This document shows, piece after piece, positions 3,001 through 63,984 of a stretch of 64,000 nt of DNA. Numbering within the stretch: the first letter of the stretch is position 1; each line of letters begins with the position of its first letter. The notes below the pieces were generated by a model. The model made no database searches and was not told the origin of the DNA. It worked only from the letters and a program-made list of their open reading frames with translations. The position numbers and the translations under genes were made by a program. Origin of the DNA: Mesostigma viride (lineage: Eukaryota > Streptophyta > Mesostigmatophyceae > Mesostigmatales > Mesostigmataceae). Where the stretch lies: the NCBI GenBank assembly GCA_009746045.1, contig RPFO01000026.1, positions 4,525,320 to 4,589,319 of the forward strand. Direction: 5' to 3'.

Positions 3001-6000
3001 ACTCACTCACTCACTCACTCACTCACTCACTCACTCACTCACTCACTCACTCGCACACACGCACAGACACACACACATACACACACGCACAGACGCACGC
3101 ACATTTCTACCAACCCACTTCCATCCCCCGTTAACCCACCCCCACCCTCCTTCACTTTCTCGCAGGTTCTCCACCAGCTCCACAAGCGCAGCGTGGCCGC
3201 GCTGTCTGCCGCCCTGCAGCAAGCGCGCGCGACCCTCGAGCAAGGGGGCGGCGGTGGCGGTGGGGATGCCAGCAGCGGGTTGACGGCCGCCAGCCGTAGT
3301 GGAGCCAAGGGCCCCGGGAACGCCCGCCTGCAGCAGGTATGTGTTTGACTATGAAATTCTTGGAAATGGTGGGAAGAAGCAGCGCGTTCAGGCAAACCGA
3401 GGTCCTTCATGGGCCTCTGGCCTGATGTTTGGAACATGTCGCCGGCACGCATGCCGGCAGATGGGTGAAAGGTGCTTCCAACATAGTAGTGTTTTTGTTC
3501 ATAGGCAACTGGTTAGCAGGCATGCAGGCATAGGAAGGGCGAGGGTGATTGCCCAGTGCCTTCTGCCTCTCTGCAAAACAGAATATCAGCAAAAAATATA
3601 CATCTGTGGAGGAGAAATCGTAAGCTACGCTGGATGCAACGAATAGGCGCGGGGCCGTTGGAACACGGCATCGAGTCCTCTGGGTACTATTGTTTAGGGT
3701 TGTACTCCTGTTTTACCCTAAACAGAGGACGGTGGGTACTAGTCCCCGCGCGCTCATTGCATACTCATACGTCTGTGGTTGCTTGATTGTTGTTGCTTAC
3801 CTTTCTGGCCCCTGCCCCTTGTCCCACCCACCCACCCACCCACCCTCACCACCCACCCAACCCCACCGCAGCTGCTTCTGAACCTGCTGACCAGCCGTGC
3901 GTCCGACGCGGCATCCCCCAACAACTTGACCGCCATCTGCAAGGCCGTGCTGCAGGTGAGGCATGCGCCCCCAGGCCCTTGTGCTGCACATGAGGGGCGT
4001 CCTTGATTACCAATAGCCCATCATCAGGCTAGTGGTAGTTGGAGCACCCCAGCTGATCAGAATTGATGATGCTGCAGGTGAGGCACCCGCCCTAGCCCCC
4101 TTGTGCTGCACGTGAGGCACTCATGTCACGTGGTTGATGGTTGGACGGGTGATACCAGCATACGGATGACTGGATGGATGGATGGCTGCAGGTGTGTGCC
4201 CGAGTAAGGCACCAGGGGAGCTTCGGCATCCCCTATACGACCCTAGTAAACACGGTACATGGTACTTCCATTCCCATGTTTAAAGTAATTGTGAACTTGG
4301 TATTGGCTCATCATCTTAGCAGATCCTACTGCTGTAAATTCCGTCTTACTAGTTTCTACTACAGTTGTACAAGATTACTTTACTGAAAATTCGAATCCGG
4401 GTTCTCGTTATCTTAAACTAGGTAACAACTGGGTATAGGGGTGTTTCCTGATAAGGCTGTTTTCTTGGGCGGGCATGCAACCATGCCGCCACGAGGCCCA
4501 GCGCCCACACCATCGAGACAGGCAGCGCAGACGGCTGGGCATTGCTCCCTCGCTGGCCCTGCGCACACGCTTTTTTTGTATCGAGCCCATGGTGTTGCAT
4601 TGTACAAGGAGTCGTGACGCATTATCCAAGGTGCCGCATGGGGGAGCAGATGCCTGGGCGCGGGTGAATCATCCCAGAGGTCATGGTAACGTTGTGTGGC
4701 AACCTGAGTACAGTAGCAACGGGATACGTTGGGTCATGGTTTAGGGTTTAGGGTTTTATTGTCACCGATATGGTCTGGGTATCGTGACAGACATGGTCGG
4801 CGTATTGTCACCGATATGGTCTGGGTATCGTGACAGACATGGTCGGCGTATTGTCACCGATATGGTATGGGTATCGTGACAGACATGGTCGGCGTATTGT
4901 CACCGATATGGTCTGGGTATCGTGACAGACATGGTCGGCGTATTGTCACCGATATGGTCTGGGTATCGTGACAGACATGGTCGGCGTATTGTCACCGATA
5001 TGGTCTGGGTATCGTGACAGACATGGTCGGCGTATTGTCACCGATATGGTCTGGGTATCGTGACAGACATGGTCGGCGTATTGTCACCGATATGGTCTGG
5101 GTATCGTGACAGACATGGTCGGCGTATTGTCACCGATATGGTCTGGGTATCGTGACAGACATGGTCGGCGTATTGTCTCCGATATGGTCTGGGTATCGTG
5201 ACAGACATGGTCGGCGTATTGTCACCGATATGGTCTGGGTATCGTGACAGACATGGTGATCATGGACGTGTGCTGGATACATTCACAGACATGTGCTGGA
5301 TGTATGCTGGATATGTGCTGGGCATGGTCACAGGTATGGCCATGGACATTTGCCTACTTTAATGTTAATGGATGTGTTGGTGGATATTCTCACAGCTACG
5401 GTCACCCATGCTTTGCGGCGGGCAGGATGAGGCGCTGTCCAAGGGCATCAGTGGTTGATGTGACGGTCAATTGACGGATGCATGCCGGATGAGTGCAGGA
5501 TATTTGCTCAATGTGTTACGAATCTCTTCCGTACCACCGCAGGGCAGTGCGCTGCCAAACATGGGACATGGAATGGATGGGTGTATGCATGCCAGACGTG
5601 TGCCGCATAACTGCTAGTAGGACCACAGGACGAGGCGCTGCCCGACACGTGAGTGTAATAGAATCGACGCATGTGTGCCGGATGTGTGCCTATTTGCTGG
5701 CACAACCACAGGACGAGGCGCTGTCGAATGACATTGAGACGCTCATGGCCTACCTTCTGGCGTACGCGTGGGAGCAGTTCTCCAAGGGTGAGTGACAATG
5801 TGACAGGTGGCAGCGCTCCTAGGATATGTGGGGGAGATTTTCCCAGCGGGCAATCCTCCAGGGGTGAGTGGGCACAGGTTTCCAAAGGTGGGCGGGGCCT
5901 GTTTTCCAAGGGAACATGGGGACAATTTTTGAAGGGTCTGGGGGGCCAATATTGGGATGGCGATTTGGGCCAACTTTTCCCGGGTAAATGGTCGCAGTGC

Positions 6001-6681
6001 AAGGGCTACAGCGTGATCTTCCTTGGTGAGTGACATGTGGCATTTGCTGGGCCACCGCGCTTATTGCCTGGGATGCACATGCAGAAACTACAACCAAGGT
6101 ACTGTTCGTATCAAGAGTGGCTGCTGCCCATTGCTGGGCTTTTGCTTTATGGGCTGGAATGGTTTGGGTGGGCTCTGCCACGGTGGCGTTGTCAGTATGT
6201 AGTATTATGAAGCGTTAGCCAAGTACAGTTAGCACATTGCATACACACCACTGTTGTTTGTATGTGTATGTGTGTGTGTGTGTGTGTGCGCGTGTATGTG
6301 CAAGTTTGTATGGTCGTTTGGGGGGTGGGGGTGGGGGTGGGGGTGGGGGTGGTGGGGTGGGGGTGGGTGGGGGGGGGGGGGGATGGAGCTGTTAGTGTGT
6401 TGCAGGGAGCTGGAGATGAATTGACAGAACAAATGTTCAGCTGTACTATGTAATCTAAGTTTGACAGTTGATGCTCGGAATGAGCCGGCGCAAAATAGTA
6501 AACCACGACCTTCTCTAGTGTAGATCAGTTATATGTTGTTTTGATATATAAGAGGCTGGCATGGATGTTGACGGTGTCATGATTTGTTCCTTGGCATCGT
6601 GCTGTGCCTCCTTGTCGCTTCACAGCTGATTCGGAAGCGCCACCGGAAGTCCCTGGGCAGGTCGCGAAGAGGAAAGCTTGA
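13..6681 (+). CDS. Unknown protein, low-complexity N-terminus and helical C-terminus, five exons
   Basis: I do not recognise this gene. Proposed exons are 13-2079, 3166-3336, 3872-3955, 5712-5787 and 6626-6681. The phases join without a break and give 817 aa ending in AKRKA. The frame is open from base 1, so the true start may lie upstream. Residues 1-640 are Ser/Gly/Arg/Pro-rich with SRSRSP-like and VERSRERS-like repeats, probably disordered. From about residue 645 the sequence looks helical: LARVCSLYTERLLSV, then VLHQLHKRSVAALSAALQQA in exon 2, LLLNLLTSRASD in exon 3 and IETLMAYLLAYAWEQFSK in exon 4. That helical continuity across junctions is the main support for the splicing. Exon 5 is the weakest: it has a good pyrimidine-rich acceptor and the right phase but only 18 codons. 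Introns 1 and 3 hold repeat arrays, and exons 3 and 4 have duplicated edges in intron 3. Confidence 0.55.
2537..3085. repeat. CACACT then CACT microsatellite in intron 1
   Basis: About 550 bp of simple repeat fills much of intron 1 of the first gene. It passes from CACACT-type units (2537-2770) through CACGCACT units to pure CACT (about 2890-3052) and ends in a short CA tract. The graded unit change suggests successive expansions of mutated units. Confidence 0.95.
3946..4200 (+). repeat. Ghost copies of the exon 3 donor junction
   Basis: The real exon 3/intron 3 junction at 3955/3956 reads CTGCAG then GTGAGGCATGCGCC and is followed by CCTTGTGCTGCAC. A degenerate copy of the whole stretch lies 122 bp on, with junction 4077/4078 (CTGCAG then GTGAGGCACCCGCC, then CCTTGTGCTGCAC). 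A weaker third copy has its junction at 4191/4192 (CTGCAG then GTGTGTGCCC). Confidence 0.8.
4738..4757 (+). repeat. Short interstitial TTTAGGG telomere-like tract
   Basis: Two to three TTTAGGG units directly abut the 46-bp tandem array that begins at 4758. Confidence 0.7.
4758..5257. repeat. 46-bp tandem repeat, about 11 copies, each an imperfect hairpin
   Basis: Units start at 4758, 4804, 4850 and every 46 bp to 5218, nearly identical (4850 has one change, 5172 has one). Each unit contains TGTCACCGATA, nine bases, then TATCGTGACA, which pair as a stem with one bulged C. The array sits in intron 3 of the first gene, so a transcript would carry a row of about 11 hairpins. Confidence 0.95.
5423..5711 (+). 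repeat. Ghost copies of the exon 4 acceptor junction
   Basis: Exon 4 starts at 5712 after CACAG with GACGAGGCGCTGTCG. Upstream in the same intron are ACAG GACGAGGCGCTGCC (start 5629), CAG GATGAGGCGCTGTCC (start 5426) and a weaker CGCAG GGCAGTGCGCTGCC (start 5543). All keep the acceptor AG in place. Confidence 0.75.
6261..6382. repeat. TG dinucleotide and G-rich tract in intron 4
   Basis: A TG run (6261-6295) is followed by GGGGGT-type repeats and a G homopolymer ending near 6382. It lies between proposed exons 4 and 5 of the first gene. Confidence 0.9.
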
Positions 6682-9447: not shown

Positions 9448-10518
9448 TTGCCCAGACCACCCCCTCCCCCCAAAAAATTGTCTTCTGCTAGGCCATCACC
9501 CCGACGCTTGGGATCCAATCTTCAAGGATTGTTGAGGTTCTCCGAGACAGCTTGCCTCAATGTCCGAAAGCCCCCAGGCCATGCAGAGCTTTCCGTGGTG
9601 CGCTGACGTGCGCGTGCCATAGGGGGGCTGTCGGCTCCCCGTGTTCCCCAGGAGTGGGGCGGCCAGAGTCGCCAGCCCCCCAAACATGGCCAGAAGGCAC
9701 GCCTCCCATCAAACATGCCTTATGGCCATCCTGTGATGCTGGTGGTGACGGTGGCGGCGGTTGCGGCTGTGGCTGTGGCGGCCGCTGCACCTGCTGCTGC
9801 TGCTGCATGCGCCCATGAAGTCCTAGTGGTAGACCTGCCGGTTTCTCTACATCCGGAGGACTGTGCTTCCCTTCCCAGAACCTGAATGTCAACGATGCCC
9901 GCAACCCTGTGTTTTTTACCGCCATCAACCAACCCTCCATGAAGGTGACACCTGTGCTGAAGTCATCACTTGCCACCTTTACGGGGGTGGCCAGCGCTCT
10001 GGTCGTTCAAAGCATGGCCGTCCCCACCTCCCCTTACAGGCAGGCCACAACCCGTTGTACAGGCTGGGCTCCAGCTGCATCGGGCAACTGGTCAGCAAAC
10101 CAGACTACTTCAGGCTCCCTTTCACAAGTTCGCGTCAGGGTCCCAAGGGGGTCATGGACTCGCCATGGTCCCTGTCTGCAGGCTGGCCATACCCCTTTCT
10201 CAGAGGTTCCCCTCCAGGTCGATCGGGTACCTGACAAAGCAAACCAGAGTTCTCAAGCTCCCTTTCTACAGGCTTGCATCCCGGTCGATGGGTATTGACA
10301 ACTTGTCATGGACCCCTCGTGACGACTCAGAAGCAATTCCTTGAAAGATTTGCCTCCAGGAGCTAGGGGATCAAGCAATACCCATGCTCCTATCCTGCAG
10401 GCTGGCCCTCCTATTCGCAGGTTGGCCCTCCCATTGGTGGGTTGGCCCTCCTATTCACAGGTGTGCTGGCCTTCCTATTCACAGGTTGGCCCTCCTAGTG
10501 GCGGGGGTGCCCTCCTAT
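9448..10518. other. Downstream flank of malic enzyme with degenerate repeats of its 3' end
   Basis: No separate gene is supported. From about 10140 to 10518 short blocks resembling the last coding bases of malic enzyme recur on the plus strand: CATGGACTCGCCATGG near 10151, CTCCAGG followed by GATCGGG near 10209, GGCTGGCCCTCCTATTCGCA near 10400, and several CCTCCTATTCACAGGTTGG units ending at the gene's own stop codon (10519-10521). Confidence 0.55.
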
Positions 10519-13500
10519 TCACAGGTTGGCCTCCAGGTGCATGGGGATCATGGACTCATCATACCGTGGCTCGTACATGTGCGTGCGCACGTGCGCGCAC
10601 AGCTTCTCCTTGGGCGGCACGGGGACCTCGTTGAGCCCCTCGAGCCGTGCCTGGTGCATGACCGCGGCGGCAACGATCACGCTCACGTCGCGCACTTTGT
10701 TGACCGAGGGGAAGAGCACGCCGGCCTTCACGTCAGCATCGGTCTGGTAGAGCGCAAGAGCGCGCGCAGCCGCAATGAACATCTTGTCGGTCACGCGGCG
10801 CGCGCGCGCCAGCACCACGCCCATGCCGACGCCTGCGAGGCATGTTCACAGATGGGGTTCAAAAGAGAGGATGTGGTTGGTAATGGGAAGGAAGGGGGAG
10901 TAAGTAAAGTACTAGGGTGCCGTGTTGGGGCCATGTCACAAGTAGTATGCCAGCCTCAATAGACAAAATCTAAAAGATAACAAAATGCATCTGAATATGC
11001 CCTGGGGGGGAAGGATGAAGGAGTTACCAATGATCAGGGAAGGGAGGCAAGGGGGGAGAGTTCAGGCACGGCGACAAGGGGGAGCGTTAAATGGCAGGAC
11101 CTGGGGGGGTGGGGGTGGGGGGGGATCGAGACCCAGGGATAGCTGAGAATCAAGCTTGCAAAGTCCAACCTTGCAAAGTCCAAGAAATGTTCGCCCAAGG
11201 ATTGCACGCCCAAGAAATGCGCGGTCTCTTGCTGGTCAACAAGACACGGGAGGCTGCAGCTTTGGCGCAAAGGGAATGCAAACCGTGGCACAAACTCAGT
11301 TCACCTGACCAGGGACCGCACATGAATTCCAAACACCAGCCATCTTGCCCTGCGCCGCATGCACACGCGGCGCAACCTGCACGCATGAGTCCCTACATAC
11401 ACCGGCCGTGCATGCCCACTCCCTTAAAGAGAATCTCACGGTTGCTTACCGGGGAAGATGACATGCTGTTCCCCTGAGCCACGCTCACCCACACCCACAC
11501 CCACTCTAAACCCCCGACCGAAATGCCCACCCATAACGCCCAAACGACATGCCCACCGTACAACGCCCAACGACCCTACAATGCACAACTTCTGTCCCCC
11601 AGAAGATGACGGTCGCTCACCCGGGAAGATGAACATGTTATTGCCCTGCATCGGGTACACCATGTGCCCCTCGTACTCAAACGGCGGGTACGGCGACCCC
11701 GACGCGAATATCGCCTTCCCCTTGGACCACCGCATCGCGTCCTCGGCAGTGATCTCGCTATTCGCGGTCGGGTTCGAGAGCGGGAAGATGATCGGAGCGT
11801 CGCAGTTCTCGCACATGGCCTCCACGATCTCCTTTGTGAACGCGGCCGCCTGGCCCGAGAGCCCCATGAGCGCGTTCGGCCGGATCTTCTTGACCATGCT
11901 GAGGATGTCCAGCCCCTCGAACTTGGTCGTGTCGGAGCGCGCAAACTGTTTCTTGTGGTCGGCCAGGTGGGACCGCTGGGCCGTGATGTGCCCCTGCGAG
12001 TCGAGCATGTAGATGCGGGCACGCGCCTCATCCTCGGGCAGACCTTCCTCCATGATGAGGGACACGATCGTGTTGGCCACGCCCACAGCCGCGCTCCCCG
12101 CGCCGAAGAAGAGGATGCGGAGGTCGCTCATCTTGGTGCCTTGGGAGCGCGCGGCGTTGAGGAGGCCTGACGCGATGACCGCGCCCGTTCCCTCTGGGGG
12201 TGGGGAAGATGGCATGAGAAGTTGAGAAGAAGAGAGGTGGGATGACATGAAATAGCATTATAATTAGCATTATGAATGAAAGGACAACAAATTGTGAATG
12301 AAAAGACAACAAAATGAGACGAACTGAATTTCACTGATATGGAATAAATACATGAAATGAAAGGGGACATTAGAAGAGGAGGCTGGGGACAGGGGGGCTC
12401 AATGTTGATTGGGTGGGGGTGGGCGACATGGGGGACGGGGTGTGGCCTGGGAGAGGTGGGAGAGGTGGGGTGGGGATGGGGATTTCGTTGGGGGGGAGGA
12501 GGCACAGGTGGGCAGGGGCAGGGGCAGTAGGTGGGTAAGTGCTGATAAGGGTGCCAGACATGGATATAGGGACAGGGGCAAGCAGCAGATAACGAGCATG
12601 GCTTAGTCTACGTGCTTTTAGTAAATTAATGGCATCCCCCCATATTGCTTCAACTCGCGCAGTCCTCTACCTTTTCCTGCCATCGTGGAGTTGGTGTTTG
12701 AAAAATTAAGACGCTTCAGCTTAGTGGTCGTCCACAGATATCCCAACGCACTGGACAGTAGCAAACTCGCGTCAACCCACGGATGTGCATGCCCTCTGAA
12801 AAAATGCTCCCGATCACATCATCCCGACTAGGGTGTCCATCACCAACCCCAGCCAGCATAAGACCCAGTAAGCTGTCCGCCCACCCCATTAACACTGCGC
12901 ATACAGCCCCTTTTGAAGCCCATTCACGGCCCATTTTTAAAGCCCACATTTAGCCAAATCACAGACCATTTATACCTCATTCATAGCCCACATACAGCCA
13001 ATTGTGGGTTTAGGGTTTAGGGTTTAGGGTTTAGGGTTTAGGGTTTAGGGTTTAGGGTTTAGGGTTTTAGGGTTTAGGGTTCACAGCCCATGTATAGGCC
13101 CCCTAAAGCCCACGTAAAAGCCCACTCCACGCCACGTAAAAGCCCACGATGAATATCCCATGGTCACGCGCCCACTCACGAATGTCGTCGTTGAACACAC
13201 GGTACTTGTCGCGGTGCCGCTCCAGCACGCTCATCGCCTTATCGGTCTTAAAGTCCTCAAACTGGACGAGGCAGTGGGGCCACTTGTCCATGACCGCGGC
13301 CAGAAACTCATCGACGACCGCGTAGTACGCGTCCCCGTCCAGCCGCGTGTGCCGCGAGCCCAAGTACAACGGGTCCGCGAGCGTCTCGTCCCGGTCCGTC
13401 CCCACGTCCAGCATGCAAGGGAGCGTGCGGGAGGGGTGGAATCCGCCCCCAGCGATGTAGAGCGACAACTTGCCCGCACAGATGGGCATGCCATTGATCC

Positions 13501-19900: not shown

Positions 19901-22900
19901 TCCTTGTTGTCTCTATGGCCATTTTTAAATCTGCTCGCTCCGTTGCTCGGCGTCTTTCACGCATTTGCCTTCCGTGCAGGAACTTGCGCGCGCACCATAC
20001 GGCCTTTTTCTTGAATTCATTCAGCACAAGATCTTGCTAGCATCCTTATTGCTCTCTTGTGTTTTCTGCTGATTCCGTTATTTCCCTTTACTCTCCCAAG
20101 GAACCTGCCTGAAGACATCGAGGCCCTTTTCAGTCTATCTGGTAGATATCGGCACCATTCCTGATCCTTTCTGTAGTCCCCGACCTCTTCTAAAAGTAAA
20201 TACCATCAGTTCTTGTCGTTTAAATGCCCCTTACCCCCCCCAGGAACCTGCCGGAGCACCTCGAGGCCCACTTTGGCGTCCCCATGGCCGGCGCGCTCCT
20301 CGTGTCCATCAACACGCGCCTGAGCCCGCGGGAGATGGGCACGATCCTCGCCCACTCAGGCGCCTCGATCCTGTTGGTCGATTCTGCGCTCGCCAGCAAC
20401 GTGGCCCACATCCCGGGCCTTGCACACACGCCTGGGAGCGGCCTGGCGGCGACTGTCGGCGGTATGGGGTGTCCCACTAGTGGCAGCGGCGGGGGCGGCG
20501 GGGCCAGCGATGATGGGGCCTTGTCGGGACTTAGGAAAATTGTGACGATTTGCGAGGACCCCTCACACACGGTGCACGAGCATCTGTTCCCGCGGGGCGT
20601 CACGTATGAGGAGTTTCTCAAGTCGGGGGAGAGCGTGGCGGTTGACCCGCAGGGGCGGCTTCAGCATGAGGAGGACAGTATTGCGATCAACTACACATCA
20701 GGGACAACGGTGGGTGGTGGACGGATTTATGTTCAATGGAACTTGGGCGACTTGACCGTGAACTCAAAGTTTTCGTATGTCAAATGGGGCTTGGATGCAC
20801 TGAAAAGTTGGCGAGGGTGGGGTGAAGCTCCCCGTTGGAAACCACAGGGGGTGGACGTTTTAGCATTTCGGCAGAGCTTTGTTGAAGTCGGTTTGATTAA
20901 GTGCAAGAAGCAATTGGTGGGTGGGTAGATCAACGACCCACCAGGGACCACGACGGTTGGTTGGTTGATTGGTTGGTATATTTTCCATTTGATCATATTT
21001 TGTCGATTTGGTTGGATTTGGTCGACAGTACAAAATCTACTTATCATGTGATGAGGGTTGGGTAAATTGCATGGCAGGGCCGATGGTGGTCGTGGCTTGA
21101 GTTAATTTGTCTGATAGAGTTCCGTTTCATTCCGTGGAATAAGCACGTGGAAGGTGGTTGGATCAACTAGACTGTCAGGGAGGACGGTGGGCGGTCGATT
21201 TTTTTAATACGTTCCACTAGAATGCAGTCGAGTGGGTGCAACTAACTAAGCGTGTGGTAGGTGGCTGGGTTTGCTAAAGCAGATGGATCAAGTACATGCT
21301 CCCTGGTTGCGTGGATGCTGTGTCAGGCATGTGCTAGCTGGGTGCGTGGATGCTGTGTCGGGGACCGCGGTGCCGCGGTGGTTGGTCGATAACACACATA
21401 GTCTGTTCGCTTGAGATGGTCTGTTGGACTCGATCTGTGTACTGAAAAATGTCGTTGGTAGCTGGGTCATGTCAAGGTGAGAGAGATGCGCGGCAGCGCC
21501 AGCAACTACCCGACCTACCCCTTCAGGGTGCGAGGCGCTAGGGACTAGTTTGCACTTTCTGGATGATTGGCTCGCCGTGTCCTTGCCAAATCCGCCCTCA
21601 GCCTAGTGCATGCCTTGCCCGCCCGTTACTGTGAGCGCGTTTTCGTCATGCTTGCGCATTGCGTGTTTATGCTTACACACGCGCGTGTTCCTGCTGCTTG
21701 CCCCTTTCGTTCCGTTCCAGGGCGCCCCAAAGGGCGTCTTGTACAGCCACCGTGGGGTGTACCTGAACGCCATCGGCGAAGCGATGGAGAGCGGGCTCAA
21801 TTCTTCATCCAAGTATCTATGGACGGTACGGACTTCTGAATTTTTCTTGACCTGTGTATCTTTCTGGTCTCTCGCCTCGCATGGATCAATCTACCGCGTC
21901 GCCTCGATTGGGTGGTCATGGCACGTGTTTGATAGTAGCGGGCATGCAGCTTACGATGACATTATCAGCATAGACCCCTCGCGGTGTTCAAATTTTGTGT
22001 TGGTGTCTCTAATGCACCTGTTCTCTGTATCTGCCCCCTACTTGCATACCAGCTTCCCTTTGCTAACCGATAGACCGCGCTGCCTCCTTAGCCTTCCTCT
22101 GAATCCATCGCCTAATTAATGAAATCAAATACTTTGTCGTCTACTTTTCAATCTCCGTGCTAAACACTTATTCATCTGCTTATCGGTCTCCGTGCTAACT
22201 ACTTGGTCATCTGCTTATCGGTCTCCGTGCTAACTACTTAGTCATCTGCTTATCGGTCTCCGTGCTAACTACTTGGTCGTCTGCTTATCGGTCTCCGTGC
22301 TAACTACGAAGTCATCTGCTTATCCGTCTCAGTGCTAACTACTTAGTCATCGGAACATGGCCGCGGGGCGCGGGCTATCTACTGCATACACTAGCATCGT
22401 AGTATTTTAGTGCCAAAACTCTTGTCCTCTGCCCTCCCACTCCCTTAGGTTCTCACACTCGTGACCTCACACGCATGATTGTCACTGTCAACAGAATGCA
22501 ATACTACTCTATATATCATATAATTGTCGATGGGGTGCCTCATTTGGACATGATGTCCCCACACATGCCTCTGTGCTGCGTGCTGTGGTGCTGGCTGCGA
22601 TGGCACGTGACACTTCCTATTCTATTCTTGGCTGACCCTCCCCTTCCAGCTGCCCATGTTCCACTGCAAGTCCTCCCATCTACGCATGCCTCCACCCGCA
22701 TGCCTCACGTATGTGCCACGCATGCTGCTGCTGTGCTTCGTGCCATGGTGCTGGATGCGGTGGAACTTGGCATTTCATGGTTTACTTTTGGCTGCCCCCT
22801 GACACGTTCCAGCTGCCCATGTTCCACTGCAACGGCTGGTGCCACCCGTGGGCCGTCACCGCGGTGGGCGCGACGCACGTATGCCTTCGCCAGTAAGTAC

Positions 22901-25900
22901 AAGGGGGCCGTGAGGTTGTCGATAGCATTCCTTGGCCCGATGCACGTCTGCCCCCGCCCATATGTGAAACTGATCGCTCCCCGATGCTTGGTGCGCGCTG
23001 ACCCAACCATTGGGCCCAACCGGTACAGCATGCCTGTGACCGGCGCACGCCATGCCTACTGGACACCCTGCATCATGCCTCTTCCGTGTCCTTGCGCACT
23101 GCGCCTCCTTGCGCGCCCATGCACCGCGCCTGTGCACCCTCCTCGCGCGGCACGCACCGGACCATGCGCCATGCCTGCGTGATGTTCTTGGGTGGGGTCC
23201 GGGTGCCCGCACCGGACCATGCATGATGACTGTGAGTCCGTGCATCCGTACCGGGGGTGGTCGTCGTGAACAGTTGCAGTGCACACACTGTATGATTAAA
23301 GGACCTGCCTTCTGGACAGGCTCATGTGTGCCATCGCGTCGATGGGGGTCCCTGCAGGTGGTGACTTTTGGCACTCTTGCAAGGTCTTAGGGCAGTCAAA
23401 ACACGCAAGAAAGGATACCTCCCATTTTTATGTCTTATTGCATCTGCAACGTGTCGATTTTCATGCCCATCGCCTATCGAACGTTGGTATTATATTCTTG
23501 CTTCTCTTCTTTGATGGAAATTTGATGGTTGTGCGGAGGCCAAACATGAAGGGCAGTGCGCCGGCACCGACGCCCATCCCACGACGTGCCTTGGCTCCTC
23601 TCTGCGATTCAAACAAGCATCGCATTGTCAAGGTAGGCTGTGCCGTGACAATACCCAGCGCGTGTGGCGGGTCCTCGCTCGTGGCCGTTTGTTTGACCCT
23701 GCTCTTCCCTAGTGCTGCCGGCCCTTGCAATCGCCGTTCCTCTTGTCCCTCATCCCCTCTTCGGCTCCCCCCCACCTGCTCCCGTCCTCACATCAACCCC
23801 CGCCCCAGCTTTGACCCCCAGCACGCGTGGCGGGTGATCCTCGAGGAGCGCATCACCCACATGTGCGGCGCCCCGATCGTCCTCCACTCCCTCGCCCACT
23901 CCCCCCACGCGCCGCGGCCGGGAGAGCTCCCCCAGACGCTGACCATCGTGACCGCGGGGGCGCCCCCATCGCCGACCCTCCTCGCCCGCATGGAATCCCT
24001 CAACGTTGATGTCCGCCACATGTACGGGCTCACAGAGACCTACGGCCCGCACACGGTCTGCGCAGTGCAGGACACCTGGCGGGGGCTGCCCTTGGCGGAG
24101 CGCGCCGCTAAGGTTTCCCGCCAGGGCGTTGGGATGATCTGCGCCGACCCTGTCAGGGTGGTCGACGGCGACATGCGCGACGTGCCCCGCGACGGCGCCA
24201 CGATGGGCGAGGTCGTCATGCGGGGGAACAACGTGATGAAGGGGTACTTCAGTGACCCTAGAGCGACCGAGCGCGCGTTTCACGGCGGGTGGTTCCACTC
24301 GGGCGATCTCGCGGTCATGCATCCTGACGGGTACATCGAGCTGAGAGACCGGAGCAAGGACGTCATCATCACGGGGGGGGAGAACGTGTCGTCCATCGAG
24401 GTGGCGCAGGTGGGGGGTGTGGGTGGGGAGAGATGGGTGTTCTTACTAGTTTAGGTGGGGGGTGGAGGACGGCAACGATGTTTTGTTGAATGATGGGGGG
24501 CGATAGGCTTGTTTGTTTCATGTTGATTGTGGCTGGGACAGGCATCCGCATGAGTACTCACATGGAGGACTGTGTTGGTCATTGATTTGAGCACCGGGGA
24601 GGGACCGGAGCAAGGACGTGATCATCTGTCGCGGTCGTGCAGGTGGGGGGGGGGGGAGGAGGGGAGAGAGAGTTGGGTGCTCTGACTCAAGGTGTGGCCG
24701 CGCAGGCGGCTGGTGAAGAAGACAAGGGGGCAAAATTGGCAAACGGGTGTCGCTGGTGGTTTAGATGGCGTCGGTGGGTGGTGACAGATAGTAGGGGTGC
24801 CTTGCATCCAGTTTAGATCACCAGGTGCTTGGGTGGGGAGGGGCAAAAGAAAAATGGGGTGTTATGATAGTTTAGGTCACGCACTTCGGTGTTCAAAGAC
24901 AGCAGGGGTGTGTTTTTGAGTGCGACAGCTGGCACAGGTGGGTGGCACCTAGGCACGTGTTGGGGCACGTGATGGGCCAGCTGGCACAAGTGGGTGGGGT
25001 CAACGAGTTTGGGCCCATGACGGGCCAGCTCGAGCAGGAGGCTCCAGCAGGAGGGTGGCAGGTTGTTGGGTTGTTGCAGTTGCGTCGTGAGTGCAAGTGC
25101 ATGTTTGGTAATTACCCCGCACATACTATGCATCGAATGGCGACCGTGGTTTCCAGGTCTCCCTTCATGTTTGTGGCCTTGAATGGCCAGTGATTCCTTT
25201 AAGGTATTTGCGCTTAGCGCCATGTGGCATATTGAACCAAGGAAACTAGCTTTGGCTAGGCCAATGTGTGGCTTTTAGCCTATAAAAATCTGGCTAGGCA
25301 CGGCCACGTGTGGCGACTGGCGGGCGGGCGAGTCAACTGGCTTCCCTGGTCACACAATGCTCCCTTCTTAACCTGTCACCTGCCACTTGCGGGCAGCCTT
25401 CCGAGTCACTGAGTCCTGAGCGCAGAATTCTTCACGTACACTGCGGCGTGGCGCGGCGCTTTGTGGCCAGTCAGCTAGTGAGCTTCAGGCGACCAAAGCA
25501 CGCGAGTCGACACTCGACAGCCACGGGGCACTGGGCCATTGTTGACTGGCGGAAGCTACTCGTAGTACTACTAGGGAGACTTGCGGCGGAGAGCCGGCTG
25601 GAACACAGATTGACATGGCCAAGTGTGGCGTCACTAGGTAGTAGCTTTGGATTCAACACGGCCATGATGTGGTGACCAGCAATTGCCAAGTAGCACAGCT
25701 CCGCCACATTGTGGCGTCTTGGGACCTGTCATTTGGGGTTGATATCGCCACAATTTGCTAAAACAGGCGCTACAACGCCACATTTGGCGAGCAAACGCCA
25801 CGAATAAACACTGTGTATGGCCATTCGTGCGCTAAATTGTGGGCTTGGGTGTGCTTCATGCCCATACAAGGTATGCATGCGTGGAGCTGTGTCGGTCTAC

Positions 25901-48765: not shown

Positions 48766-48769
48766 TTAA

Positions 48770-52717: not shown

Positions 52718-55700
52718 TCACACAGAGCAGATCGTGGCCCTGCCAGACGCGTGCAACAAGCGCCACGCGGCCGACTCCCCGCTCCAGTCATGCACGCGGA
52801 ACGCCGTGTTGGGCTTCCCCTTGCGCCCGCGGTACTGGTCGGGCCCTTTACGGCTCGACGGGTACGTGGTCATCCCGTACAGGCTCACGTGCTCGCACAG
52901 CCGGAGCATAATGAGGATCCCGTGGGCCCCGCTCGTGAGCTGCTGCTTGGAGCGACCGCCGCGGAACCGCTGCAACGAGAGCGACCCGCCCGCGTCCCTG
53001 CGCAGCGCGAGCAGCGACCGCTTGAGCTCGGATTCCACGCGGGGGGAGGTGGATAGGACCTTGAGCCGGCGGCCATACTTGCGCTTGAGGCAGGAATGGA
53101 TGCGGGCGCGTTCGAGGGGGTGCCAGAGGAGCATCATTTTGAGTGCCCAGCGGCCGGGGGCGGGCGAGGAAGGCGGTTTCGAGGTCGTTTGCGGCGCAGC
53201 GGCCACGGTCGGGTACCCCGTGGTGGTGAATGAGAATGACTCGCTCAGCAATTTGCGTGTACTGGATTCCCTCGTTGCATCGCTCATGGACTCGCTCATT
53301 GCATCGGCCATGGCTTCGCTCATTGCATCGGCCATGGCTTCGCTCATTGCTTCGCTCATCGATTCGCTGGTTGCATCGCTCATTGAGCCGCTAGCTGTTG
53401 CTTCGCCCATCGATTCCCCCCAAGATTCGCTCGTGCTGGATGGCTCGCCCGTGTCGCGCCAGGACTCACCCTCGCTGGTGCTCCACGGCTCCTCCGTGGC
53501 AAAAGATGCGGATGCACTCGAGTTCAAGGATCCAGAGTGTCCCGAGGCTGGCCCGGGTGGTAGGGACCACGATGTTGTTGGCGATGGCGGTGATGGTGAC
53601 AATAGCGGTGATGGTGGTGGCGTCGTGAATGGCTTCCCTCCCCCCTTCTTCTTGTTGTTGTTCGCAGCTGCCACCTCAGGCAGCTTGTTCTCTGTACGGC
53701 ACACCGACTTGGAGTGCCTGCATGAATTTCCGCCAGCAAAAACAACAATATGCACCAGCAGTGCGACAATGCGCAGCAGCAAAACGAAGCAGTGAGCAAG
53801 CATGGTCACTTCCCTAAAGCACATTCGGCACACATAAGCACCCGTACAGCACCCACAAGGCGAAAGCACCTATAAAGCACCCATACTGCACACTCGGGAG
53901 AGGCACAAACGCAAGTGGTGCTTACACACATACAAGGCTATCATGCCGCGATGTGGGTGGTCGTTACAGCCCGCGGACACGCCGAATGGTCCCTATCCGT
54001 TAACCCAACATTCCCAACAAACCCTCTCACAAATCAAGTTATGCCCCTTACCTCCGCTTTGCCCTATAATTGGTCACTACCCCCCCCCCCCCCCCCCCCC
54101 CCCCCTCACATAAGGTTGAGCCCCTCACCTATAGCGGTGCCACCCGGTATGGCTAGCGCCCGTCACCTCGGGTAGCTGTAGAACCGGTATTGATACTGGC
54201 GAGGCTCACCGCAAGGGTCACTCAATATCTGTACTGGTACCCAAGCGGCAACAACTGGTACCTGTGCCTACCCCCCTCACCTGAGGTTGAGCACCTCACC
54301 ATAGGTAGAACGTGCACCATTCCCATTACTGTTGCAGTTGGTCACTCTACTTGGTCACTATGGCCCCCTCACCTGAGGATGAGCACCTCACCATCGCTAG
54401 TACCGTGCCCCATTCCCATACTTCTTGCAGTTGGTCACTCTACTTTGTCGTCAGAAAGCAACATACGTGAAAACGCTAGCTGCCCAAATCTGAGATTCCG
54501 CGGAACACAGAAAGTAAGAAAGCCTAGAAGCTACCAGCAAGGAATCGAACATAGGACCTTTGGCATGATTTCGCAGCTGTGTGAGTCTCCTGATCCGAAG
54601 GCATCTCACTTAACGTTTAGAAACAGCCCAACTGCGAAAAACCTCTTTACCGGAGAGGGGTGCCAATATGTCCGATATTGCTGAATCTATAGAAGATGAC
54701 TCACCACTAGACCTAAGTGCGCAGGAGTACTACTTGGTCACTCTACTTGGTCAGCATGGCCCCCTCACCTTAGGTTGAGCACCCGTATCGTCGTCTTGGT
54801 GCCGATATGCGGTGCAAACCGCGGCGAGAGAGAGAGTATGTTGAACCGGACGACCGCATCATGCCTGTCGATGTATGGCCCGTATTCTTTTTTCAGAATG
54901 TGGCCCGAGTTTCCCACGATCGCGCACGATTTGAAGCGCGCGAGTCCCCTCATGCCGCCCTTTCGGAACCCGCCGATTCGCCGAATACTCGTCATCGAGC
55001 GCGCGGCCAGCGCGGCGCTCATCCCGCACGCGCTGATGTCACGCAGGCACTTCCCGAGCTCCTTTTTCGCGCTATTTTTATCGATGGGCTTGCGTGGCAC
55101 ATCCCTGAGCGAAGGCGAGGAGGGGCTCCAGGGCTTGACCTTGGGCGGCGCGCCACCGCACCAACGGGAGAAGCTCGAGATGCGGTCTTTGAGGACCAGG
55201 CCGGAGGGGGAGCCGAGGGTCGAGTTGGACGGCTCGGGATCCACAGGGTCAGTTTCGGTTTCAAAGTCGATTACCACATCATCGTCTGTGAGGGGGGGCA
55301 GCGGCTCCGTGTCCTCCTCCGTGTCCTCGACGTCGGCGTCTTCCGCGTCGGTTTCTTCTGCATCGCGTTCGGTTTCATCTCGTTCGGGCGCCGCTTCGCG
55401 TTTTCCGGGCGCCGCTTTCTTCTTTTTCTTCTTGTCGCCTTTCTTGCCACCTCGCTTCGCAAATGGGTCCAGGATGACGCCCCTGTTTGCGTCCACGATG
55501 ATATCGCCGCTGTCCTCCTCGAGCCAGCGGTCGTCAAGGTTTGACGGGCCCACTTTGAGGATTTCGAGAGTCCCACTGGCGCTCTCAACAGGGATTGGAA
55601 TGGTGACGCCGCTGCTGCTGCCTATAAACAGCCACGGCATCTTCATGACGAGGGTCGCAAAGAGGCAGAATAGCACAGCTCCCACCGCAATGGCAACCTT

Positions 55701-59091: not shown

Positions 59092-62000
59092 ATGCCGGAA
59101 GTCAAGAAAAAGGTTTCGTACTTCTACGACAGTGAAGTCGGCAACTACTACTATGGGCAAGGGCACCCGATGAAGCCTCACCGCATTCGCATGACACACG
59201 ACCTGCTGCTGCACTACGGAATGCACAAGCACATGGAAATTCTAAAACCGGAATTGGCTCTTGCCTCAGAAATGTGCAAATTCCACACCGACGATTTCGT
59301 TGAGTTCCTCCGCCTCGTCACGCCCGACAACCAGCATGAAATTTCCCGCCAGCTCAAGCGCTTCAACGTGGGCGAGGATTGCCCGGTCTTCGACGGGCTC
59401 TTCGAATTCTGTCAAAAGTACACGGGAGGGTCGATTGGAGGCGCCGTCAAATTGAACAGCCAGGACGCGGACATCGCTATCAATTGGGCCGGCGGGCTGC
59501 ACCACGCGAAGAAAGGCGAGGCATCCGGGTTTTGCTATGTCAACGACATCGTGCTCGCCATCCTGGAGGTAAGCTTGGGTGAACCACGGAATCGATCCAC
59601 AGTAGCTGCTAGCAGCTTAGAAACGGGCACCAGGGTTCTTGTTTTCTGTCTGGATACAGTGGCGTGCTGCGTCCCTAGTGTGCGGGCTGTATGTTGCCAC
59701 CTAGCTAGCCACTGGTCTTTGTGCTCTTGGTCCAAACTATACTTGGGTGATTCCAACATATGAAAACCATACTTGGTTGATGTAGACTCGGGCCTCTTGC
59801 ATGCATGTGTTTTGAATATCAGCAAGTTCTAGTAATTTTCATGTTCCCCGCTTTTGTCCCGTCCTGTCGTCCTCCTTCTTTTCCCCCCTTCCTTTTCCCC
59901 CTCTCATCAAAGCCCCCGCTCCCCCCCCCTCCCCGTGCATGGAGCAGCGGTCCCCTATATTGTCTGCGTGCTTGTGTGCTCCGCTCCGCAGTGACATTAG
60001 TGCTCACTCGTCGTGTTGGTTTAGCCGTATGTGCACTCTGTCACCCCCCCCCCCCCCCCCCCCCCCCCCCGCCCCGCCCTCCCTGTGTCTGGGCAGCTTC
60101 AACTCCTGGGGTAGCGCTCAATCCTGTGGCGTAGGCATCTCTCCCTCCTGGGGTGGAGTGCTCTCTCCTGCGGTAGAGGGCTCTGTCCCGTCCAGCCCCA
60201 TTCTTGTTTGTGGGTGTGGCAGGGCCATGTCACACCCACACCCACACCCCATGGCCAGCTGGCGGTTCCCGTTTCCTCATCCTGGCGTTGTCACGTATCG
60301 GCTGTTTCCTCTCCTGTCCATAACCCTACCCCCCTACCCCCCTTACGACGCAGACTCCCCATGGTGAACTAGTTTGGTACCATACTGGATTCGAACACAG
60401 GACCTCTTGCATGATTTCGCGGCTATAGGGGTCTCCTGATCCAAAGGCATCCCAAGCGATAGCCCAACTGCGTAAAAGCTCTTTACCGGAGAGTGGTGCA
60501 AGTGCGTTCGAAATTCTCCAATATGAACCAGTGGATCGAATCTAACTGCAAACCCACTTCTGCTCCATTGCTAATGCGGCCGCGGAGCACCTCCCCCCCA
60601 TGGTCTTATCCTTTACCCCCCCCAAAAAATAGCTGCTCAAGCACCAGTACCGCGTGCTCTACTGCGAGCTGGCCGTCCACCTCTACTAACATGAGCACAT
60701 GAGCTCACACACCCATGTTCCCATACCCTGTTGTTCACCCACGCATCGACACACCTTCCAGCTGCTCAAGCACCACTACCGCGTGCTCTACTGCGACATT
60801 GACATCCACCACGGCGACGGCGTGGAGGAGGCCTTTTACTCCACCGACCGCGTCATGACAGTCTCCTTCCACAAGTTTGGCGACTACTTCCCAGGGACGG
60901 GCGACCTGTCGGATATCGGATACGGCGCGGGCAAGAACTACTCCCTCAACGTCCCGTTGAAGGACGGCGTGGACGATGCCACGTTCCAGTCTCTCTTCCG
61001 GCCCATTCTCCAGAAGGTGGGTGAGTCATGCCATGTTGGCCCATCCTGCACAAGGTGGGTGAGCCATGCCATGTTGGCCCATCCTGCACAAGGTGGGTGA
61101 GCCATGCCATGTTGGCCCATCCTGCACAAGGTGGGTGAGCCATGCCATGTTGGCCCATCCTGCACAAGGTGGGTGAGCCATGCCATGTTGGCCCATCCTG
61201 CACAAGGTGGGTGAGCCATGCCATGTTGGCCCATCCTGCACAAGGTGGGTGAGCCATGCCATGTTGGCCCATTCTCCAGAAGGTGGGTGAGCCATGCCAT
61301 GTTGGCCCATCCTGCACAAGGTGGGTGAGCCATGCCATGTTGGCCCATCCTGCACAAGGTGGGTGAGCCATGCCATGTTGGCCCATCCTGCACAAGGTGG
61401 GTGAGCCATGCCATGTTGGCCCATTCTCCAGAAGGTGGGTGAGCCATGCCATGTTGGCCCATCCTGCACAAGGTGGGTGAGCCATGCCATGTTGGCCCAT
61501 CCTGCACAAGGTGGGTGAGCCATGCCATGTTGGCCCATCCTGCACAAGGTGGGTGAGCCATGCCATGTTGGCCCATTCTCCAGAAGGTGGGTGAGCCATG
61601 CCATGTTGGCCCATCCTGCATAAGGTGGGTGAGCCATGCCATGTTGGCCCATTCTCCAGAAGGTGGGTGAGCCATGCCATGTTGGCCCATCCTGCACAAG
61701 GTGGGTGAGCCATGCCATGTTGGCCCATCCTGCATAAGGTGGGTGAGCCATGCCATGTTGGCCCATCCTGCACAAGGTGGGTGAGCCATGCCATGTTGGC
61801 CCATCCTGCACAAGGTGGGTGAGCCATGCCATGTTGGCCCATCCTGCACAAGGTGGGTGAGCCATGCCATGTTGGCCCATCCTGCACAAGGTGGGTGAGC
61901 CATGCCATGTTGGCCCATCCTGCACAAGGTGGGTGAGCCATGCCATGTTGGCCCATCCTGCACAAGGTGGGTGAGCCATGCCATGTTGGCCCATTCTCCA

Positions 62001-63693
62001 GAAGGTGGGTGAGCCATGCCATGTTGGCCCATCCTGCACAAGGTGGGTGAGCCATGCCATGTTGGCCCATCCTGCACAAGGTGGGTGAGCCATGCCATGT
62101 TGGCCCATCCTGCACAAGGTGGGTGAGCCATGCCATGTTGGCCCATTCTCCAGAAGGTGGGTGAGCCATGCCATGTTGGCCCATCCTGCATAAGGTGGGT
62201 GAGCCATGCCATGTTGGCCCATCCTGCACAAGGTGGGTGAGCCATGCCATGTTGGCCCATCCTGCACAAGGTGGGTGAGCCATGCCATGTTGGCCCATTC
62301 TCCAGAAGGTGGGTGAGCCATGCCATGTTGGCCCATCCTGCACAAGGTGGGTGAGCCATGCCATGTTGGCCCATCCTGCATAAGGTGGGTGAGCCATGCC
62401 ATGTTGGCCCATCCTGCACAAGGTGGGTGAGCCATGCCATGTTGGCCCATTCTCCAGAAGGTGGGTGAGCCATGCCATGTTGGCCCATCCTGCACAAGGT
62501 GGGTGAGCCATGCCATGTTGGCCCATCCTGCACAAGGTGGGTGAGCCATGCCATGTTGGCCCATTCTCCAGAAGGTGGGTGAGCCATGCCATGTTGGCCC
62601 ATTCTCCAGAAGGTGGGTGAGCCATGCCATGTTGGCCCATCCTGCACAAGGTGGGTGAGCCATGCCATGTTGGCCCATCCTGCACAAGGTGGGTGAGCCA
62701 TGCCATGTTGGCCCATCCTGCACAAGGTGGGTGAGCCATGCCATGTTGGCCCATCCTGCACAAGGTGGGTGAGCCATGCCATGTTGGCCCATCCTGCATA
62801 AGGTGGGTGAGCCGTGCCATGTTGGCCCATCCTGCACAAGGTGGGTGAGCCATGCCATGTTGGGTTGCGCGTGGAAGGGATCCAGGCTCCGCTTTGCTGG
62901 TTGCTGCTTGCACCCGTACGCACATTTACGTATGTTCTCGCTACTTTTAGATCTTTTACCGTTCCTTCTGCATCTTTTTGTTTTTCTTTCAACCTTTTTT
63001 CTACATTTTATTACACAGCTTTTGCACCGCTTTGAGGCGCCTGCACATTGTCATCGATGCGGTTGCGCGGCTGCCAGTGTACTGCCCATGGGATGACCAC
63101 CTGACCGACGTTGTATCGACACTCATATGAGTGAACCACCTTACCGACGATATATTAAATGAGACACTCGTATGAGTGAAAAGTACACAAGTGGTGCTAA
63201 CATGAACGACAGGAGCGCTGTACATAGACGGAAGCGCAAACATTACATTTCTCGCTTGTTACCTGTCGCAAAGCATCACCCAACGCTTTTCCATTCAATC
63301 ACTATCAACCACATCCACAACTGCATCAATGTTGCAACCTCCCACATACGTCACCAAGTCAACATCGCTGTCAACATTGCTAGCAACACTCCTGTCAACA
63401 TCGCTAGCAACACTCCTGTCAACATCGCTACCAACATCGCTACCAGCATCGCTGTCAACATCGCTCTCCCCTGTCTTCCTTCACACCAGGTCATGGAGGT
63501 CTACCAGCCAGGTGCCGTCGTTCTCCAGTGTGGCGCTGACTCACTATCTGGCGACCGCCTCGGCTCGTTCAACCTGTCCATCAAGGGCCACGCGGACTGT
63601 GTGCGCTTCATGAAGAGCTTTGGGGTGCCCCTGTTGGTGCTAGGCGGGGGTGGCTACACCGTGCGCAACGTGGCGCGCTGCTGGTGCTATGAG
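59092..63693 (+). CDS. Class I (RPD3-type) histone deacetylase, 5' three exons, runs off the window
   Basis: Zinc-dependent removal of acetyl groups from histone lysines, normally in nuclear co-repressor complexes. Exons: 59092-59568, 60762-61016, 63490-63693, all phase 0, giving 312 codons; the rest lies beyond 64000. The start [20 protein letters not shown] is typical of the class. Catalytic parts are complete: [16 protein letters not shown] (His 137, 138), DIDIHHGDG with zinc ligands Asp 173 and His 175, [11 protein letters not shown] with zinc ligand Asp 261, and [14 protein letters not shown] with Tyr 299. Length to this point equals that of RPD3-family catalytic domains, so the missing part is the domain end and tail. 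Intron 2 (2.47 kb) is mostly a 38-bp repeat grown from the exon 2 donor. Intron 1 contains a near-perfect copy of the exon 2 start. Confidence 0.95.
60036..60072. repeat. C homopolymer in HDAC intron 1
   Basis: A C run of about 24 bases followed by GCCCCGCCC. Confidence 0.85.
60372..60500 (-). repeat. tRNA-related SINE-like copy in HDAC intron 1
   Basis: On the minus strand: CTCTCCGGTAAAGAGC, CGCAGTTGGGCTATCGC, GATGCCTTTGGATCAGGAGA, GCGAAATCATGC, AGGTCCTGTGTTCGAATCC. It is a clear relative of 54520-54660. The terminal TGTTCGAATCC block is a good B-box. Confidence 0.65.
60630..60690 (+). repeat. Ghost of HDAC exon 2 start with intact acceptor AG
   Basis: AG then CTGCTCAAGCACCAGTACCG and CGTGCTCTACTGCGA starts at 60633, 129 bp before exon 2 (60762). 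The first 35 bases differ at one position. It then reads [18 protein letters not shown] and stops at TAA (60687-60689). Confidence 0.9.
61006..62862 (+). repeat. 38-bp tandem array of the HDAC exon 2 donor junction, about 48 copies
   Basis: The unit is GGTGGGTGAGCCATGCCATG then TTGGCCCATCCTGCACAA. The first unit spans the real junction: CCCATTCTCCAGAAG is the exon 2 end and GTGGGTGAG the donor. About ten later units keep the exon-like TTCTCCAGAAG, most have TCCTGCACAAG and a few TCCTGCATAAG. Each therefore presents AAG then GTGGGTGAG, a usable donor. All three minus-strand frames stay open through the array, which is why long spurious proteins (600-680 aa) appear there. Confidence 0.97.
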
Positions 63694-63945
63694 GTGGGTC
63701 GACATGAGCCTCCCCCACACCCCCACACCCCCTGCCCGGACCCGGTACACCGTCCGCCATCCCCCAACACACACACAAACACACACAAACACAACTATGC
63801 TATAGTGTCAAAACCACACCCCCAGCCCCACCCCCGTCCTGACAAAGAAATGTGGTGGTTTAATACATGGAGTTTAGTTTGAATTAATCCATTCTTAATC
63901 GCCACGTTATGGGGTAGGGAGGCCTTCAGCGATGAGGGTGGGATG

Positions 63946-63984
63946 CGGGTGCTTTGAGGTGTGCTATGAGGTGGGGTCAACATG
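63946..63984 (+). repeat. Ghost copy of HDAC exon 3 donor edge
   Basis: Real junction: TGGTGCTATGAG then GTGGGTCGACATGAG (63693/63694). About 277 bp on: GTGTGCTATGAG then GTGGGGTCAACATGG (63970/63971), preceded by a further GGTGCTTTGAGGT. Confidence 0.75.

Follow-up and report, generated by a model that had tools for sequence, protein, structure and literature searches.

Results

About one third of the splice junctions in the DNA analysed here, a 64,000-nucleotide stretch of the Mesostigma viride genome (the window), are accompanied by a short, decayed copy of themselves in the adjoining intron. Each junction, taken with 30 nt on either side, was aligned by the Smith-Waterman method with its own intron more than 60 nt away, with low-complexity sequence removed and a score of at least 18 required; a direct copy was found at 11 of 35 edges (8 of 18 donors and 3 of 17 acceptors), and a twelfth copy, of the HDAC exon 2 acceptor, starts at the AG itself. 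A sequence-only reading of the window had reported that exon-edge blocks recur in neighbouring introns and had suggested mid-exon segments as a control; in the window, the same test gave no match at any of 399 mid-exon points (1 of 399 at a score of at least 16, and 6 of 399 at 14). At the threshold of 18, intergenic points matched in 59 of 1610 and 48 of 1610 cases, one figure per direction, and the non-splice borders in one of five stop codons and none of five start codons. The copies are in direct orientation, lie nearby and are specific to their gene: junction blocks matched none of their own introns as reverse complement (0/35), no other intron of the same gene (0/112) and no intron of another gene (0/518; 1/518 on the reverse strand). 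They lie approximately 83-488 nt from the junction, much as that reading had put it (about 80-490 bp).

Six multi-exon genes were rebuilt, namely A (unknown), S (small and secreted-looking), ME (malic enzyme), AAE, GT29 and HDAC, with 37 splice edges, 35 of them testable; the sample is one window, chosen for its striking look. For three of the genes the model is 100% identical to a public Mesvir1 protein (ME, 609 aa; AAE, 665 aa; HDAC, 312 aa), so that their splice sites are independently supported. The GT29 model is backed by PF00777, found in both of its exons, and genes A and S were modelled solely from open frames and GT-AG borders. Introns in Mesostigma are long, with a published mean of 1,142 bp (PMC6947507).

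Ten of the eleven edges listed in the sequence-only reading, in which HDAC exon 2 counts as two, do have a copy (Table 1): the gene A exon 3 donor and exon 4 acceptor, the ME exon 4 donor, both edges of AAE exon 3, the AAE exon 5 acceptor and exon 6 donor, the GT29 exon 1 donor, the acceptor and donor of HDAC exon 2, and the HDAC exon 3 donor. The exception is GT29 exon 2, for which no copy was found, the exonic side of its acceptor scoring 8.0, the mean of its null, and its stop edge giving none. Beyond that list, the analysis adds the copies of the ME stop codon, a weak G-rich copy of the gene A exon 1 donor (score 18) and a weak copy of the gene A exon 4 donor (score 15), which is under the threshold; these two weak matches may be due to chance. 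The AAE exon 5 donor and exon 6 acceptor gave weak exon-only matches (score 15), which were left uncounted because no junction-crossing copy was found.

Table 1. Copied borders and their copies, in coordinates of the window
Feature	Position	Strand	Details
Gene A exon 1 donor, weak G-rich copy	2240..2272	+	score 18; real junction after 2079
Gene A exon 3 donor, block	3948..3995	+	junction after 3955; self-BLAST E 1e-6
Gene A exon 3 donor, intronic copy	4070..4117	+	40/48 identical; 122 nt downstream
Gene A exon 4 acceptor, copies	5423-5448, 5469-5508, 5569-5640	+	real exon start 5712; BLAST 5536-5640 vs 5622-5723
ME stop-codon CDS end and four downstream copies	10059..10533	-	stop ends 10519
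ME stop, individual copies	10472-10415, 10373-10341, 10166-10115, 10101-10059	-	tandem unit 20/64 bp
ME exon 4 donor, intronic copy	11430..11476	-	38/48; exon end 11621; 171-172 nt downstream
AAE exon 3 acceptor, intronic copy	20076..20126	+	41/53; real exon start 20244
AAE exon 3 donor, copy with GT lost	20928..20970	+	score 21; real exon end 20709
AAE exon 3 donor, second copy	21142..21198	+	score 23.5
AAE exon 5 acceptor, copy	22559..22669	+	62/80; BLAST 78% over 117; exon start 22813
AAE exon 6 donor, intronic copy	24599..24687	+	real exon end 24409
GT29 exon 1 donor, intronic copy	54338..54387	-	46/50; real exon end 54769
GT29 exon 1 donor, two more copies	54295-54272, 54124-54101 (span 54101..54295)	-	
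HDAC exon 2 start, copy beginning at AG	60631..60681	+	45/51; real exon start 60762
HDAC exon 2 donor, 38-bp minisatellite starting from it	61000..62863	+	exon end 61016
HDAC exon 3 donor, intronic copy	63961..63984	+	22/24; real exon end 63693

Similarity to the neighbouring intron falls away quickly inside the exon. Exon 30-mers reached a score of at least 15 in 7 of 24 cases at the edge (a bin that misses some exact donor edges, since donors were sampled every 5 nt), 7/72 at 1-10 nt, 3/145 at 11-30 nt, 4/202 at 31-60 nt, 0/323 at 61-120 nt, 0/672 at 121-300 nt and 2/985 deeper than 300 nt, these last two both from gene A exon 1; 46 of 2,469 were removed for low complexity. At exact edges, an exon-only 30-mer passed for 4 of 19 donors and 5 of 18 acceptors, and a junction block of 15+15 nt for 8 of 19 donors and 4 of the 17 acceptors kept. 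The raw-score thresholds with matched controls replaced a first significance test against same-length segments of other introns. That test was dropped because, of 160 mid-exon controls taken as a random draw from a larger set, 15 reached p<=0.01 as well.

The blocks are short and partly G-rich, and long repeats are difficult to assemble, which might suggest chance similarity or an assembly artefact. We give this next to no credence, however, given the 0/518 matches in introns of other genes and the fact that, outside the near-identical HDAC array, copies differ from their originals by approximately 4-30%, differences that misassembly does not yield. The published Mesostigma genome is also described as resting on 113x long reads (PMC6947507), although the window may come from another assembly.

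Copies are found at a border without a splice site as well. The ME stop codon has four downstream copies scoring 19-34.5; one-kb pieces elsewhere reached no more than 13 in 62 comparisons, and introns of other genes, on either strand, no more than 15. Contrary to the proposal that duplication is centred on splice junctions, splicing is thus not required. The common factor may be the border between coding and non-coding sequence. Since none of the five start codons has an edge copy and only one of five stops does (the AAE stop, at 12.5-13.5, falls under the threshold), only one clear case speaks for extending the pattern to every coding border. It is possible that splice junctions are true mutational hotspots, owing for example to R-loops, to breakage at G-rich donors or to breaks linked to the spliceosome, and that splicing itself is what the process acts on, as the 11/35 junctions, the apparent lean towards donors and an array anchored exactly at a G-rich donor would suggest. 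We nevertheless think this unlikely, as the ME stop codon is copied in the same way and donors and acceptors do not differ significantly (p=0.15; counting the HDAC acceptor, p=0.29).

That array, at the HDAC exon 2 donor, comprises 49 copies of GGTGGGTGAG at exact 38-bp spacing, with the exact exon end present in 11 copies, the real one included. Recognisable copies make up 1,847 bp (75%) of HDAC intron 2. The first donor is the one used in the public HDAC protein; one extra 38-bp unit would shift the frame.

Enrichment at junctions over intron interiors is strong in introns free of arrays and weak to modest when introns with arrays are included. In the array-free introns, a division made after the data had been seen, 5 of 25 junctions matched as against 7 of 900 interior tests (450 points in two directions; p=7e-6); with array introns included, the figures are 11 of 35 junctions as against 127 of 844 interior points in each direction (p=0.016). 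All five passing array-free junctions are donors (5/13; acceptors 0/12), one of them being the weak, G-rich gene A exon 1 donor, and AAE intron 3, which itself has junction copies, holds four of the seven array-free interior matches. GC content was rejected as a cause, GC-rich interior tests in array-free introns giving 0/233.

When the local duplication families in gene bodies are considered instead, 10 of 12 touch a coding border as against 16% expected for each (P=2e-7, or 4e-5 with two-fold detectability). These 12 leave out a poly-G pair in ME intron 2 (13725-13842), an in-exon pair in GT29 exon 2, the repeat common to GT29 and HDAC introns, a telomere-like match, microsatellites of gene A intron 1 and AAE intron 2, and wholly flanking families such as a 15-bp array upstream of gene S, together with 11 further short tandem families that TRF detected in introns, none of which touches coding sequence. 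Adding 10-12 TRF-type intron families moves P to approximately 0.001-0.002, to 0.007-0.015 with detectability at 1.4-fold, and to 0.045-0.08 at two-fold.

These comparisons bear on whether there is any border preference at all. Duplication could be even across non-coding DNA, with exonic duplications purged and border copies easier to recognise by virtue of their conserved exon half, and this would account for the lack of mid-exon matches, sit well with the interior matches in array introns, and draw some strength from the family test as weakened by the TRF families. We consider it somewhat unlikely, as the simulated gain in detectability at borders is only 1.3-1.4 fold, and the array-free counts, the GC-rich interiors and the original family test all argue against it.

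Most of the copies are short displaced blocks and not intact tandem units. Thirteen copies were compared with the real junction, the HDAC exon 2 donor array being outside this set, and in 11 of them similarity stops 2-40 nt from the junction, the remainder of the supposed unit having no in-register similarity. Because the null for this comparison includes some self-overlap, its standard deviations are inflated, and the conclusion is drawn from the raw scores, which are 6-12.5 as against the roughly 35 or more that we estimate for intact units at 76-79% identity; the register can also be disrupted by an insertion at a later time, of which GT29 is an example. The earlier description of the process as tandem duplication thus holds for the HDAC exon 2 donor array and the gene A exon 4 acceptor (spacing 85), both tandem over the whole unit, and fails for these 11. 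The AAE exon 5 acceptor is suggestive of a whole-unit tandem, and the GT29 copies form a tandem series among themselves, with a 93-bp unit. The earlier view of the copies as a means of intron lengthening is also not borne out as it stands: they account for 2,693 of 20,789 intronic bp, most of this in HDAC intron 2, and for 2-11% of each of the other ten introns concerned.

Blocks shorter than their spacing, with abrupt ends in 11 of 13 copies, are what might be expected if a transposon or filler had inserted with a long target-site duplication, leaving the border block on both sides of it, and the GT29 gap does hold a repeat common to HDAC intron 1. An insertion of this kind is nonetheless very unlikely, for self-BLAST found nothing shared between different introns beyond that repeat and one 21-bp telomere-like match, multi-copy cases would require repeated insertion, and target-site duplications are generally shorter than these blocks of 24-80 nt.

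The divergence of the copies is that of neutral relics, although the statistical support is modest. In the 11 best copies, 37 of 249 exonic and 70 of 331 intronic positions differ, with the exonic differences falling 9, 9 and 19 on codon positions 1, 2 and 3; divergence is thus approximately 11% at positions 1 and 2, 23% at position 3 and 21% in intronic parts. A two-fold ratio is what would be expected if constrained sites changed in the relic only and other sites in both copies. The excess at position 3 (19/37) gives p=0.024, and the difference between exonic and intronic divergence alone p=0.066. In look, the copies bear out the picture of DNA-level relics carrying decoy GT or AG sites. The splice dinucleotides are kept in all 11 best copies, the HDAC exon 2 donor array excluded, and a further AAE exon 3 donor copy has lost its GT. 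Such retention might indicate that selection keeps the copies as decoy or regulatory splice sites, but this seems barely plausible to us, since divergence resembles that of intronic and third-position sequence and the requirement that alignments cross the junction itself favours retained GT or AG. Splicing at the copy would introduce an in-frame stop in 10 of the 11.

Discussion

We observe directly the position, orientation and locality of these copies, their neutral-like divergence and their presence at one stop codon. On balance we favour the explanation that they arose as local duplications of the break-repair type at coding borders, which were tolerated, leaving the inner copy as a neutral relic. 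Stretches straddling a border, mostly of about 24-80 nt, would have been copied directly some 80-490 bases into adjacent non-coding DNA, probably through error-prone local repair, by fill-in or by patched end joining. Unrelated filler would often have come to separate the copies, and minisatellite expansion would sometimes have followed, as may have occurred at the HDAC exon 2 donor. Duplications at a border would be tolerated because the outer border copy remains intact and in use, whereas copies in the exon interior would disrupt the protein; the inner copy would be non-functional and drift. Use of the outer copy alone is likely, and for ME, AAE and HDAC the public proteins support it.

A broader reading, which we put forward tentatively and which may well not hold, is that short local duplications in Mesostigma favour exon borders or splice junctions, and that decaying junction copies steadily build up in the introns as a result, by a process distinct from intron birth. 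If true, border-seeded duplication supplies both intron sequence and ready-made cryptic splice sites. Were the pattern to extend across the genome, past duplications could be dated from the relics, with the unchanging exon as the reference. One could also see how near-perfect decoy splice sites come to lie in the long introns of genes unrelated to one another, and exon borders could be tested as weak points for DNA breakage. Mesostigma represents an early streptophyte branch and its introns are long, and comparison with other streptophytes is therefore feasible.

Among the matches listed from open-licence literature we find no published description of this pattern, but several known systems resemble it in part. 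Introner elements, described as copies of one element in many genes (PMC9860276), likewise involve recurrent intron-linked sequence events; each copy here, by contrast, matches its own gene alone. Intron gain by tandem genomic duplication of AGGT-containing sequence, as outlined in PMC3443670 and PMC2891723, also involves local duplication of splice-signal sequence neutralised by splicing. The copies described here sit within introns that have their own ends, however, and in none of the 18 complete introns does either end look like the exon edge across from it (scores of 5-9.5, in the chance range), which upholds the distinction from intron birth drawn in the sequence-only reading. The small duplications reported at DNA breaks, attributed to fill-in synthesis and end joining (PMC8355091), are small, local and direct, as are the copies in the window (11/35 direct as against 0/35 inverted), but are tandem and come from experimental systems, whereas those in the window sit at coding borders and mostly have unrelated sequence between them. 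Lastly, in human IFI6 (IFI-6-16; Turri et al. 1995) a minisatellite is described as providing multiple splice donors (PMC4526556). The remaining cases in the window, unlike IFI6, are mostly not arrays, and the downstream units that are alternative donors in IFI6 differ in this respect from HDAC, whose public protein uses the first. Nevertheless, HDAC exon 2 presents a tandem array of the IFI6 type, with its 49 donor motifs running from the exon end, and these units could serve as donors.

Results

The malic-enzyme model (five exons, minus strand) gives 609 aa that are 100% identical to jgi Mesvir1/15402, the seven-exon acyl-activating enzyme (AAE) model 665 aa 100% identical to Mesvir1/15403, and the three HDAC exons within the window 312 aa 100% identical to Mesvir1/15407. 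PF00777 is present in both GT29 exons, and no Pfam match was found for gene A (of unknown kind) or gene S (small, secreted-looking) in the parts tested. Together the 19 introns, one of which is truncated at the window edge, make up 20,789 bp; at ~1.1 kb apiece they agree with the mean intron of 1,142 bp that an extract of the published work gives for Mesostigma viride (PMC6947507), the species we take the label Mesvir1 to denote. The intron-rich AAE gene is possibly of bacterial origin, since among the best 120 of 7,998 matches those that are named, its own record aside, are mostly prokaryotic acyl-CoA synthetases.

With 60 exon and 60 intron nucleotides at each edge as the query against the remainder of the same intron, we recover decayed direct copies of splice-junction blocks, bearing out the sequence-only reading that exon edge plus splice site recur in adjacent introns. 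Exon-blind self-BLAST of the whole window recovers most of the same copy families, missing the copies of the AAE exon 3, HDAC exon 3 and gene A exon 1 donors, which are too short or diverged. A 38-bp minisatellite starts at the HDAC exon 2 donor and holds 49 donor motifs at a spacing of exactly 38 bp, 11 of which, the real donor included, carry the exact exon end.

Junction copies and other repeats in the window
Feature	Position	Observation
Gene A exon 3 donor copy		40/48 identical
Malic enzyme exon 4 donor copy		38/48 identical
AAE exon 5 acceptor copy		62/80 identical
GT29 exon 1 donor copy		46/50 identical
HDAC exon 2 acceptor copy		45/51 identical
AAE gene	16987-26643	
Telomere-like TTTAGGG repeats, malic-enzyme intron 3	13006-13081	
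Telomere-like TTTAGGG repeats, intergenic	41897-41932	
Array immediately upstream of gene S start codon	40326-40387	15-bp tandem array, 4 copies
Repeated stretch of ~50-120 bp	within 48702-52425	near 48702, 49765, 51523, 51901; inverted near 52425
GT29 exon 2 repeat	53263-53413	in-frame 24-bp/12-bp repeat, repetitive protein stretch; a tolerated mid-exon duplication
GT29 intron 1 and HDAC intron 1 repeat	54541-54679; 60387-60515	~139 bp, 76% identical

In a matched test, each junction with 30 nt on either side was required to have a copy at least 60 nt off with a Smith-Waterman score of at least 18, the alignment reaching 4 nt past the junction both ways and low complexity being dropped; both edges of malic-enzyme intron 1 were left out as too short. 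Within this one 64-kb window, picked for its striking look, 8/18 donors and 3/17 acceptors passed against 0/399 mid-exon points, so that exon edges do stand out in the comparison with mid-exon segments that had been proposed from the sequence. The HDAC exon 2 acceptor misses solely because its copy starts at -2. The junction copies are local, direct and specific, because junction blocks found no match in their own introns reversed (0/35), in other introns of the same gene (0/112) or in other genes' introns (0/518; 1/518 on the reverse strand of those).

The copying is not tied to splicing, as one clear case shows. At the other coding borders, 0/5 starts and 1/5 stops passed the matched test, and the malic-enzyme stop is the only one of the five with clear copies: four copies of the end of that coding sequence lie beyond the stop codon, on its downstream side (scores 34.5, 24.5, 19.5 and 19), although this border is no splice site. 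Controls peaked at 13 in 62 comparisons against 1-kb pieces from other places, at 12.5 in introns of other genes and at 15 when those introns were reversed. The earlier description of duplication as centred on splice junctions seems too narrow in view of this one case.

It is likely, though unproven, that duplication in this window prefers borders over intron interiors. In introns without arrays (tandem repeats), a label assigned after data inspection, 5/25 junctions passed (donors 5/13, acceptors 0/12) against 7/900 interior tests (450 points in two directions; p=7e-6), and GC-rich interior tests in these introns gave 0/233. When array-bearing introns are included, interior points, adjoining ones being non-independent, pass at 127/844 in each direction against 11/35 junctions (p=0.016); intergenic points pass at 59/1,610 and 48/1,610 in the two directions. 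Of the 12 local duplication families lying within gene bodies, 10 touch one of the coding borders; placed at random, each would do so with a chance of 16% (P=2e-7, or 4e-5 if border detectability is doubled). With 10-12 extra short tandem families counted as interior (TRF gives 11 further ones), P is 0.001-0.002, rising to 0.007-0.015 if detectability is also multiplied by 1.4 and to 0.045-0.08 if by 2; simulation puts the gain from a frozen exon half at 1.3-1.4.

Plain tandem duplication is expected to leave similarity across the whole spacing. In an in-register test 11/13 copies have no similarity outside the block, and thus the usual copy is a short border block moved 120-490 nt, with unrelated sequence in between. 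The tandem duplication first proposed does describe the gene A exon 4 acceptor copy (spacing 85, similarity throughout) and the HDAC donor array, and is suggested for the AAE exon 5 acceptor copy, where BLAST stretches the match to 117 bp, but it is not borne out for those 11. The GT29 exon 1 donor copies are tandem to one another, and the sequence separating them from the original includes a repeat also present in HDAC intron 1. By eye this repeat looks tRNA-derived and SINE-like; ARAGORN over the window reports no tRNA. As the sequence-only reading suggested, the pattern differs from intron birth by AGGT-segment duplication, whose expected geometry was found in none of the 18 complete introns. 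Of the 20,789 intronic bp, 2,693 can be recognised as copies, or 846 bp without the HDAC array, so the copies are a minor contributor to intron length rather than the recurrent lengthening process once supposed, HDAC intron 2 excepted.

Discussion

Across the 11 best copies, identity is 212/249 in exonic and 261/331 in intronic parts, and exonic differences at codon positions 1, 2 and 3 number 9, 9 and 19. Divergence is thus ~11% for positions 1+2 taken together, against 23% for position 3 and 21% for the intronic parts, and in this the copies resemble neutral relics of a constrained exon. GT or AG is intact in all 11, in register as had been claimed, and is absent from one further copy. Use of a copy would create an in-frame stop in 10/11; at malic enzyme exon 4 alone the frame would stay open (171 nt), and the public protein does not use that copy. 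Given this neutral-like divergence, these stops and the unused open copy, it seems unlikely that the copies act as regulatory decoys.

The best-supported account is that small local direct duplications, as made in break repair, would arise at a coding border, that a border-spanning duplication would be tolerated since the outer border is intact, and that the inner copy would then drift. We infer the repair pathway; the fill-in route is one documented maker of small direct duplications in break repair, according to an extract of PMC8355091. Among the titles and abstract openings of the matches listed, we found no description of the border-copy pattern. Judged from excerpts of the respective sources, neither of two known relatives covers the scattered short blocks of this window: duplication-born introns are kin in general idea, and the donor-bearing minisatellite of IFI6 resembles the HDAC array.
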